Of a stretch of DNA of 40,605 bases, positions 9,642 through 12,461 are shown one piece after another. The notes below the pieces were generated by a model that saw nothing but the letters and a program-made list of their open reading frames with translations, was not told the origin of the DNA and did no database searches. Every line of letters begins with the position of its first letter. Position 1 is the first letter of the stretch. Source of the stretch: Bacteroidota bacterium (GTDB taxonomy: Bacteria > Bacteroidota > Bacteroidia > Bacteroidales > F082). The stretch spans positions 1 to 40,605 of the forward strand of contig JACNJS010000011.1 in NCBI GenBank assembly GCA_014382445.1, given 5' to 3'. The translations under genes and the position numbers were made by a program.

Positions 9642-10115
9642 TTAAAGAAATTCTATATTTTCTTTACCCATTGTTTTCTCACAATAACGGCAGGCAAGTT
9701 TCATTATACCCCTATGATCTTCAATAACGCGGAATTTTGTTTTCACCGCCTGAATATTAGTAACACATTTCGGATTAAAACATCTTACAATATTTTCAAC
9801 AAACTCAGGTAGTTGAACCTTCTCCTTCTTAGTAACTTCATAGTCTCTAATTTCTATCAGAGTTGCTGAAGGAGCTACTAGTGCGATTTTCTTAATTTCA
9901 TTGTCCGCAAAATATTTACCACTTATTTTTATAATTCCTTTTTTACCAAATTTTTTACTTTCAAGCGCCGTGCCAAAATAAATCTGATTTTCAGAGGCTT
10001 CCAGATTTAATATTTTGATTACCTGAAATGTTTTATCTGATGGAATATGGTCTATTACAGTGCCATTGCGAAGCGCTGATACTTGTAACTCTTTTCTTTT
10101 TTTGTCCATGATCAA
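9642..10115 (-). CDS. pyrI: Aspartate carbamoyltransferase regulatory subunit
   Basis: This 157-residue protein contains the nucleotide-binding region (GTVIDHIP, with ISGKYFADNEIKKIALVAP) and the C-terminal zinc domain with four cysteines, Cys112 and Cys117 (CFNPKC) plus Cys142 and Cys145 (CRYC). These hold the regulatory chain against PyrB in the c6r6 enzyme. CTP or ATP binding to this subunit adjusts the first committed step of pyrimidine synthesis. The likely start could be the third codon (MDKKRK) rather than the first methionine; the two differ by two residues. It follows pyrB by 13 bp, so the two are cotranscribed. Confidence 0.97.
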   Translation of the reverse strand: MIMDKKRKELQVSALRNGTVIDHIPSDKTFQVIKILNLEASENQIYFGTALESKKFGKKGIIKISGKYFADNEIKKIALVAPSATLIEIRDYEVTKKEKVQLPEFVENIVRCFNPKCVTNIQAVKTKFRVIEDHRGIMKLACRYCEKTMGKENIEFL

Positions 10116-10128
10116 TTTTTTTGAAATA

Positions 10129-11046
10129 TTACTTAAGGTCTAAAATTGCAGCGATTAATGCCTGTCGAACATAAACTCCGTTTTTTGCTTGTTGAAAATA
10201 ATAAGCCTTAGGACTATCATCAACATCTTCATTAATTTCGTTAACTCTTGGAAGCGGATGTAGTACCCGCATATTATCTTTCGATCCCTCAAGCATTTGT
10301 TTATTAAGAATGTAAGAGTTTTTAACTTTTTCGTACTCGAGTGGATCGGGGAATCGTTCACCTTGAATGCGTGTCATATAAAGTATATCAGCAATTGGCA
10401 TAACATCCATAATATCTGAATATTGATGGTACTCCAGTCCTGCGTTTTTAATCCATGTTTTAACCGAACTTGGCATTTTTAATGATTCCGGAGAAACGAA
10501 GTGGAAAGTGGCACCAAATAGGGTAAGAGCCTGAACCAGTGAGTGAACAGTTCTTCCGTATTTTAAATCACCGATCATTACAATATTAATATTCTCCAAA
10601 CTGCCCTGTGTTTTTCTAATGGAATAAAGGTCAAGCAAGCATTGCGTGGGATGTTGATTTACACCATCGCCTGCATTAATTATCGGAACGGGTGATACTT
10701 CACTTGCGTATCTGGCACTGCCATCCATTGGGTTACGCATTACAATTAAATCGGAATAGCAGCTCACCGTGAGAATTGTGTCTTTTAAGGATTCACCCTT
10801 TTTTACACTTGACGTGTCGGCACTGGCAAACCCAATTATGCTACCACCCAAATACTGTACAGCGCTTTCAAAGCTAAGACGAGTGCGTGTTGAAGGTTCA
10901 AAAAACAAAGATGCAATTACATATTGGTCAAGTATTTTCTGCCTTTGGTTTTTTTCAAACTCTTCGGCCAAATCCAATATTTGAATTATTTCATCCTTAC
11001 TATAATCGGTTATTGAAACCAGACTTCTGCCCTTAAGCATATTCAT
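10129..11046 (-). CDS. pyrB: Aspartate carbamoyltransferase catalytic subunit
   Basis: This 305-residue protein has every ATCase signature: the carbamoyl-phosphate loop FFEPSTRTRLSFESA (about residues 49-63), the 80s loop segment SSVKKGESLKDT, HPTQCLLDLYSI, and HPLPRVNEI near the C-terminus. It condenses carbamoyl phosphate with aspartate to give N-carbamoylaspartate. The start codon ATG at 11044-11046 lies 20 bp after the stop of a leader ORF, whose 3' part holds a terminator hairpin. Expression is therefore likely controlled by attenuation. pyrI and an AlbA_2 gene follow in the same operon. Confidence 0.98.
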   Translation of the reverse strand: MNMLKGRSLVSITDYSKDEIIQILDLAEEFEKNQRQKILDQYVIASLFFEPSTRTRLSFESAVQYLGGSIIGFASADTSSVKKGESLKDTILTVSCYSDLIVMRNPMDGSARYASEVSPVPIINAGDGVNQHPTQCLLDLYSIRKTQGSLENINIVMIGDLKYGRTVHSLVQALTLFGATFHFVSPESLKMPSSVKTWIKNAGLEYHQYSDIMDVMPIADILYMTRIQGERFPDPLEYEKVKNSYILNKQMLEGSKDNMRVLHPLPRVNEINEDVDDSPKAYYFQQAKNGVYVRQALIAAILDLK

Positions 11047-11066
11047 AATTTTTTGGTTTTAGTTAG

Positions 11067-11183
11067 TTATTGCAAAAAAAAAGACGACCGTAAAAACCGA
11101 CCGTCTGAAAAATATTTCGAAACTGCAATATCTTCTGCAGCTATATTTGTTTGGCTATTCCTGATCAAAAAATGTTTTTTCAT
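11067..11183 (-). CDS. Leader peptide of the pyrB operon (38 codons, candidate attenuator ORF)
   Basis: An ATG at 11181-11183 opens a frame of 38 codons ending in TAA at 11067-11069, 20 bp before pyrB. The peptide begins MKKHFLIRNS and ends FLRSSFFLQ. Its last codons run through the terminator hairpin and its T-run, and the stop lies just beyond, as in the leader peptide of the enteric pyrBI operon. The region before the hairpin holds two U-tracts in the RNA (11172-11167 and 11112-11108), which could be pausing sites when UTP is scarce. It is short and lacks an obvious homologue, so its translation is inferred from the layout only. Confidence 0.6.
   Translation of the reverse strand: MKKHFLIRNSQTNIAAEDIAVSKYFSDGRFLRSSFFLQ
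11074..11106 (-). terminator. Intrinsic terminator (attenuator) inside the pyrB leader ORF
   Basis: On the minus strand AGACGGTCG (11106-11098) and CGGTCGTCT (11090-11082) pair into a 9-bp stem, counting two G-U pairs in RNA, with a 7-base loop GTTTTTA. Nine T residues follow (11082 to 11074, the first shared with the stem base). It ends 27 bp before the pyrB start codon, where a constitutive terminator would silence the operon, so it is probably conditional. Confidence 0.8.
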
Positions 11184-11192
11184 CTCAGGGTG

Positions 11193-11221
11193 CAAATATA
11201 CTACAATAAACAGCGTTCAAA
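11193..11221 (-). promoter_or_regulatory. Promoter of the pyrB operon
   Basis: On the minus strand TTTG (11221-11218) is followed after 17 bp by TATATTTG (11200-11193), which matches the Bacteroidota arrangement TTG-N17-23-TAnnTTTG. Transcription would start near 11187-11190, only a few bases before the leader ATG at 11183, so the leader ORF would have almost no 5' untranslated region. Confidence 0.65.
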
Positions 11222-11308: not shown

Positions 11309-11372
11309 TTATCGCGTTATCGCCTTGTCGCGTTGTCGGGTTGTCGGGTTGTCGCGTTGTCGCGTTGTCGGG
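11309..11372. repeat. 8-bp tandem repeat, eight units, upstream of smpB
   Basis: Eight consecutive octamers of the form TTRTCGSS run from 11309 to 11372: TTATCGCG, TTATCGCC, TTGTCGCG, TTGTCGGG, TTGTCGGG, TTGTCGCG, TTGTCGCG, TTGTCGGG. The tract is markedly GC-richer than the surrounding DNA. It lies in the 361-bp gap between the divergent pyrB and smpB genes and abuts the smpB promoter. The stretch from 11222 to 11308 between this repeat and the pyrB promoter holds a GC-rich segment around 11280-11300 but no gene. Confidence 0.9.
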
Positions 11373-11389
11373 TTTTGTTCTTACATTTG
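11357..11389 (+). promoter_or_regulatory. Promoter of smpB
   Basis: TACATTTG at 11382-11389 matches the -7 consensus TAnnTTTG. A TTG at 11357-11359, inside one unit of the 8-bp repeat, lies 22 bp upstream and could serve as the -33 element. The start of smpB is 18 bp after the -7 box. Confidence 0.5.
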
Positions 11390-12332: not shown

Positions 12333-12338
12333 TAATAT

Positions 12339-12416
12339 TAGTTATTAGTCATTGGTAATTAGTTGTTGGTCATTAGTCATTAGTCATTGGTCATTTGGTA
12401 ATTAGTCATTGGTCAT
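12339..12416. repeat. 7-bp tandem repeat, about eleven units, upstream of guaD
   Basis: The plus strand shows consecutive heptamers of the form TRGTMAT with few variants (TAGTCAT, TGGTCAT, TGGTAAT, TAGTTGT), one of them expanded to 8 bp, over 12339-12416. On the minus strand this reads as ATGACTA/ATGACCA repeats leading directly into the guaD start at 12332. The 129-bp gap between aat and guaD contains nothing else recognisable. Confidence 0.85.
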
Positions 12417-12461
12417 TCTTTTGTTGTAGCCTATACCAATTCAATATTATATTTTCTATAA

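Follow-up and report, generated by a model that had tools for sequence, protein, structure and literature searches.

The leader of the pyrB gene in the window (the whole 40,605-nucleotide stretch of DNA analysed here, contig 96 of a 3.47-Mb assembly that is 96% complete) is probably a ribosome-coupled transcription attenuator of the pyrBI type, a reading to which a probability of about 0.73 is given. Across the window's family, which consists mostly of uncultured Bacteroidales bacteria, the sequences upstream of two genes that serve the opening steps of the pyrimidine pathway are best explained by attenuation of this type controlling both carAB and pyrBI. Comparison of relatives established that the leader open reading frame (ORF) stays open as far as the terminator or across it, whichever frame is used, that the arrangement recurs at carA, that a U-rich tract precedes the terminator stem, and that hairpins at the 5' end are commoner than in shuffled sequences. 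Ribosome coupling is well supported by these comparisons, and UTP would be the signal, as suggested by the identities of the genes and a modest enrichment of U before the stem. We further infer that the leader ORF is translated, that termination takes place in the cell, and that two hairpins upstream of the terminator have roles in regulation.

An initial annotation, made from the letters of the window, had described a promoter, an ORF of 38 codons, two U-tracts, a terminator within the last codons of this ORF, and pyrB 20 nt further on. All of these elements were found, on the minus strand, and a hairpin at the leader start codon, a second hairpin in the middle of the leader, and copies of the device at carA, outside the window, are additional to them (Table 1). 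The promoter box is placed at -12 to -5 relative to the start site in the available portion of PMC9723704. The two T-runs inside the leader comprise 6 nt at 11172-11167 and 5 nt at 11112-11108, and 20 nt separate the leader stop codon from the pyrB ATG at 11046. Folded alone, the terminator reaches -9.8 kcal/mol (z -3.2), which 4 of 200 shuffled sequences equal; the region contains two terminator-like sites, counting both strands, vs a mean of 0.9 in shuffles. Stems of the GACGG..CCGTC kind followed by a T-run are frequent among the terminators of relatives. The operon is pyrBI, since the gene that follows pyrB matches TIGR00240 above its cut-off; beyond the leader, smpB is transcribed divergently. 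Between the pyrB promoter and smpB, at window positions 11312-11374, lies the tandem repeat TCGCGTTG in 7.9 copies, and tandem repeats of the ATTAGTC type occupy window positions 12337-12417, directly upstream of a minus-strand gene for a TadA-like deaminase, an assignment whose match scores under its NCBIfam cut-off. By itself the case of the window is weak, since 14% of dinucleotide shuffles of its own ATG-to-stem stretch give an ORF through the terminator; conservation decides.

Table 1. Features of the pyrB leader and of the genes downstream of it in the window.
Feature	Position	Strand	Basis or remark
Promoter, Bacteroidota-type, TTTG-N17-TATATTTG (TTTG at 11221-11218, then 17 nt, then TATATTTG at 11200-11193)	11193..11221	minus	sequence
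Transcription start, predicted	near 11188	minus	about 5 nt 5' of leader ATG
5'-terminal hairpin, probable, CCUGA...UCAGG, leader start codon in loop	11160..11189	minus	folding, shuffles
Leader ORF of 38 codons that runs across the terminator (ATG 11183-11181, TAA 11069-11067)	11067..11183	minus	frame kept open in relatives
Hairpin in mid-leader (AGCUGCAG, loop, UUGCAGUU), a candidate for pausing	11121..11142	minus	p = 0.013 in the window
AU-rich segment containing U5, where UTP-sensitive pausing may occur	11107..11120	minus	U content in relatives
Intrinsic terminator (predicted attenuator), 9-bp stem, 7-nt loop and U-run, within leader ORF (stem 11106-11082, T-run 11082-11074, both inside the last leader codons)	11074..11106	minus	
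pyrB, aspartate carbamoyltransferase catalytic subunit	10129..11046	minus	TIGR00670, 371 bits, cut-off 237
pyrI, aspartate carbamoyltransferase regulatory subunit	9642..10115	minus	TIGR00240, 155 bits, cut-off 148.6

Searches for pyrB matched 94 of 100 genomes of the family and 283 of 295 genomes of the order, and were extended to genome contigs (the best 80 among the matches listed); 140 further upstream regions were fetched beyond the loci from family genomes and contigs. A search of the phylum, in which 130 of 238 genomes matched, concerned the genes only, and leaders were compared within the Bacteroidales and with E. coli. The family set began with 65 upstream regions, from which 7 near-identical ones, 2 without a terminator and 3 without a TA..TTTG promoter box were removed, leaving 53; tests of structure and U content drew on 54 of these 65 regions, selected earlier. 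Terminators with loops of up to 14 nt were accepted, and by this rule one was present in 56 of the 58 distinct family regions, with the box located 5' of it in 53 of those 56. The leader ORF was taken from the first ATG after the box, so that its frame was not chosen, and expectations came from dinucleotide shuffles of the stretch between ATG and stem with the terminator kept.

Homologues that keep the hairpin without an open frame had been named in the initial annotation as the pattern that would count against it, and the opposite was found: the leader ORF runs through both hairpin and U-run in 43 of the 53 family leaders, representing 16 genera, vs 10.6 expected. Three of the remaining ORFs end in the stem-loop, five within 15 nt before it and two earlier, so that 51 of 53 reach to within 15 nt of the stem (16.2 expected). 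The two other frames of the same leaders gave 2 and 7 ORFs through the terminator, and 3 and 17 that come within this distance of the stem. Kinship inflates these tests, least of all the version in which one random leader was drawn per genus, and there the frame was still kept through the terminator in a mean of 12.1 of 16 leaders (lowest 10; 2.9 expected; probability of at least 12 about 8e-8). Among the 16 genera of this analysis, a through case was not found in g9, g10 and g16. Two of the four g10 leaders end early under the first-ATG rule; for one of the genus, L017, a GTG start chosen by eye and post hoc gives an ORF that extends to 6 nt before the stem.

The same arrangement precedes carA. 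A carA match was present in 53 of the 100 family genomes searched, and 32 loci were examined, of which 1 was near-identical to another and 6, all in genus g3, had no terminator; for the other 25, the promoter rule was relaxed. Their leader ORFs pass through the terminator in 18 cases (5.8 expected), end in the stem-loop in 1, just before it in 4 and early in 2, which gives 23 of 25 reaching to within 15 nt of the stem (9.5 expected), and the two other frames pass through in 2 and 7. The leader stop codon overlaps the start codon of the following gene as ATGA in 8 of the 25 carA leaders and in 7 of the 53 pyrB leaders, overlaps that would fit ribosomes passing from leader to gene. A pyrimidine signal is indicated because carAB and pyrBI appear to share this control; arginine would explain carAB only. 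Within 300 nt upstream, a terminator was found at 0 of 10 family pyrE loci and 0 of 9 family pyrD loci; before pyrD the stretch looks like coding sequence of the preceding gene, so the count there does not bear on the leader of the pyrD operon.

Several observations concern the distribution of carA itself. In six contigs (G062:C142, G016:C94, G035:C22, G022:C31, G056:C109 and G070:C112), carA and pyrB share a strand, with carA some 4.5-5.5 kb upstream and space enough for carB between the two genes, and in G062, G016 and G022, for which both leaders were sampled, carA and pyrB each have a leader of their own. At E <= 1e-100, carA was matched in 0 of 26 genomes of genus g14 and not in the window's own genome (G000); the five g14 leaders analysed retain the pyrB attenuator. 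At one carA locus of genus g3 (L284, genome G002), CCCGGAAC..GUUCCGGG overlaps a GGGAUUAUUUCCC stem, which a T-run follows; judged by eye, this single sequence has the look of two hairpins of which only one can form at a time, with no leader ORF.

Immediately upstream of the terminator, the leaders are rich in U. In the interval from -20 to -5 relative to the stem, the U fraction is 0.42 vs 0.27 further upstream in the 54 pyrB leaders (higher in 43 of them) and 0.44 vs 0.28 in the 25 carA leaders (higher in 17), with A at 0.38 vs 0.37 and 0.37 vs 0.32, respectively. The excess is modest when set against 38 other terminators (0.41 vs 0.36 over 20 nt, p 0.011). Of the 54 pyrB leaders, 17 had a hairpin significant at p < 0.05 within the 55 nt before the stem, as did 8 of the 21 that were tested among the 25 carA leaders; the significant hairpins end 8-29 nt before the stem. 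No mutually exclusive antiterminator was recognised by eye on the folds of family leaders.

At the other end of the leader, a hairpin is likely to form around the start codon, beginning near the predicted transcript start, with the leader ATG situated in the loop or within an arm; its statistical support is mixed, and covariation is only partly shown. Stem scores exceeded those of shuffles at p < 0.05 in 32 of 54 pyrB and 12 of 25 carA leaders, and the highest-scoring stem surrounds the ATG in 51 of 54 pyrB and 24 of 25 carA leaders, an outcome likely anyway given the position of the ATG. A test of folding energy was significant for 24 of 54 pyrB leaders, the window included: its stem-score p was 0.22, yet 0 of 150 shuffles folded as well. 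Pairing was then counted in two groups of chosen rows, group A being that of the window (16 of 21 rows, with L005, L006, L008, L025 and L120 omitted) and group B comprising 21 of the 33 leaders outside it, several without an evident hairpin having been omitted. Paired cells amounted to 78% in group B vs 22-43% when the arms were slid, and to 74% vs 18-48% in group A. The covariation score of group B was 0.177 vs 0.128 for shuffles and at most 0.13 for slid versions, with changes on both sides in 5 pairs and 10 cells (shuffles 3.2 and 4.1; one slid version 7 and 11); in group A, the window among them, covariation did not exceed shuffles, the sequence being conserved. Searched against the window's genome, a model of the element (R1, with scoring of 150 of the 6743 candidates from a first look) clearly finds the pyrB leader only, the next match having an E value of 1.6.

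The presence of this hairpin allows another interpretation, in which leader translation still matters but the signal is the frequency of ribosome initiation on the leader, set by the 5' hairpin either alone or together with a ligand, sRNA or protein, rather than polymerase pausing at U residues. It is encouraged by the occurrence, at both pyrB and carA, of differing start-codon stems (CCUGA..UCAGG, CCGGUAACAU..AUGUUAACGG, CCGAAC..GUUCGG and UUUAAUAUGAC..GUCAGAUUAAA) that are commoner than in shuffles. Their stem and loop sequences, however, differ from group to group, as would not be expected of a ligand pocket or protein site, and the U-rich tract would be left unexplained. Nor did the window or the 11 tested loci contain a match above the gathering score to any known Rfam cis-regulatory RNA, although Rfam cannot decide membership of the pyrBI class because the E. 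coli control locus also had no match. Control through initiation frequency is considered unlikely as a replacement for pyrBI-type attenuation, though it is the most probable of the alternatives.

The peptides encoded by the leaders bear on what is being selected. Among the 43 ORFs that pass through the terminator, the three possible frames enter the stem 16, 6 and 21 times, and genus g3 alone uses all three across similar hairpins, encoding DGSSPSFF in L027, RRFLPSFFF in L028 and TALAVFF in L121 over the hairpin. By eye, leader peptides differ between relatives and share no regulatory codon run. Translation through the terminator looks like the selected trait, because all three frames are used and the peptides differ; these sequences conserve freedom from stop codons, but no peptide and no single frame of the hairpin. 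A leader of the trp or his type, which senses charged tRNA, might have been expected from a short ORF, hairpins and a terminator preceding biosynthetic genes, and carA also serves arginine synthesis. Such a leader would not account for peptides and through-frames that vary between species, nor for an ORF that crosses the terminator rather than ending short of it to allow alternative hairpins; amino-acid attenuation was rejected on inspection of the pyrB and carA leader peptides by eye, and is improbable.

Control by a PyrR-like protein, or by an undiscovered UMP or UTP riboswitch, is slightly less probable again. In Firmicutes, PyrR acts on pyr genes whose leaders contain a terminator. In the family, by contrast, 0 of 60 genomes exceeded the cut-off (138 bits) of NF003549, which we take to be the PyrR model, and PyrR control was rejected; weak matches occurred in 47 of the 60, the best at 34 bits, and 6 of 14 control genomes scored above the cut-off. 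Conserved aptamer-like sequence was not seen, the Rfam result given above applies here as well, and neither mechanism requires an open frame through the stem. An accidental open frame, across a terminator that serves some other element, might be allowed by the 14% chance for the window alone but is the least credible explanation, the ORFs through terminators being far above shuffles and other frames in 16 genera and at two genes.

Ribosome-coupled attenuation has its closest counterpart in the pyrBI operon of E. coli, in which high UTP permits fast transcription and termination, and low UTP causes polymerase pausing so that a coupled ribosome prevents the hairpin from forming (available excerpt of PMC10135430). 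The E. coli leader ORF, pyrL, consists of 44 codons that run through an eight-pair terminator and end 3 nt before pyrB. Its anatomy matches that of the window in the operon served, a short ORF, a hairpin recognised by eye, a U-rich stretch, and a terminator within the last codons, and this likeness, with the occurrence of the same device before carA, supports the pyrBI-type reading with which the initial annotation began. The two systems differ in phylum, and by eye they share no leader sequence; the window has a TTTG/TAnnTTTG promoter, a predicted 5' untranslated region of only a few nucleotides, and a start codon that sits inside the 5'-terminal hairpin. The U-rich tract adjoins the stem in the window's family, whereas in pyrL it lies further upstream, and the -20 to -5 interval of pyrL shows no enrichment (0.20 vs 0.30 upstream). 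The E. coli rph-pyrE attenuator, in which a ribosome close behind polymerase blocks the terminator at low UTP, uses the end of a full gene, whereas the family uses a dedicated leader, and family pyrE differs from it in having no terminator at the ten loci described above. PyrR-controlled pyr attenuators likewise possess a leader terminator, but employ a protein sensor for which the family genomes gave no match above cut-off. With respect to carA, the device of the family differs from E. coli carAB, which is controlled at initiation (PMC6245113, as far as its accessible text goes), and resembles Pseudomonas aeruginosa, of another phylum, in which a leader peptide at carA is associated with pyrimidine control by attenuation (accessible part of PMC4997734).

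Under pyrBI-type attenuation, RNA polymerase would start about 5 nt before the leader ATG, as predicted from the promoter. When UTP is plentiful, polymerase would outrun the ribosome through the U-rich tract, and the terminator would fold and stop transcription before pyrB. When UTP is scarce, polymerase would slow in the U-rich stretch before the stem, perhaps aided by the middle hairpin, and the trailing ribosome would close up and enter the stem region, blocking the terminator so that pyrBI is transcribed. A ribosome finishing at or near the pyrB start may also feed pyrB translation, and the 5'-terminal hairpin may delay the first ribosome, in which case polymerase would keep its lead unless slowed. 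A more elaborate version is put forward tentatively and is open to considerable doubt: a two-gate attenuator, in which a 5'-terminal hairpin around the start codon, on an mRNA that is almost leaderless, times the loading of the first ribosome while a U-rich pause and an ORF through the terminator decide termination, would control carAB and pyrBI in the Bacteroidales, would have originated independently of the enterobacterial pyrBI leader, and would be under selection for translation in any frame, not for a peptide.

The device may extend beyond the window's family, on thinner support. From 163 regions of other Bacteroidales families, 12 were removed as near-identical, 76 for want of a terminator, 56 of a promoter box and 1 of an ATG, and among the 18 analysed the leader ORF reaches to within 15 nt of the stem in 16 (6.5 expected; other frames 0 and 11) and passes through the terminator in 6 (3.9 expected; other frames 0 and 6). 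Outside the window's family, L196 (family f138) has a start-codon hairpin, UCUGAU-AUGAA-AUCAGA, and L188 (family f109) has an ATGA overlap.

As of 2010, leader peptide systems had been shown only in Proteobacteria and Actinobacteria, ermC apart, according to the available text of PMC2965389. Small ORFs reminiscent of leader peptides have been mentioned in Bacteroides leaders (PMC7366714, in part), and clues for leader-peptide attenuation in amino-acid operons of Flavobacterium (PMC9723704, in part); the accessible content of PMC4833913 and PMC7819879 has no bearing on Bacteroidota pyr genes. No description of such attenuation of Bacteroidota pyr genes was found in the open-access literature, as represented by titles and the openings of abstracts among the matches listed.

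If the reading is correct, a race between ribosome and polymerase that controls pyrimidine genes would not be peculiar to enteric bacteria and their relatives. It would also show close coupling of transcription and translation in Bacteroidota, in which translation initiation differs from that in E. coli. That similar terminators are crossed in all three frames is a clean comparative sign of selection acting on translation itself, and a tractable test organism might be found, given the similar leaders present in some other Bacteroidales families.
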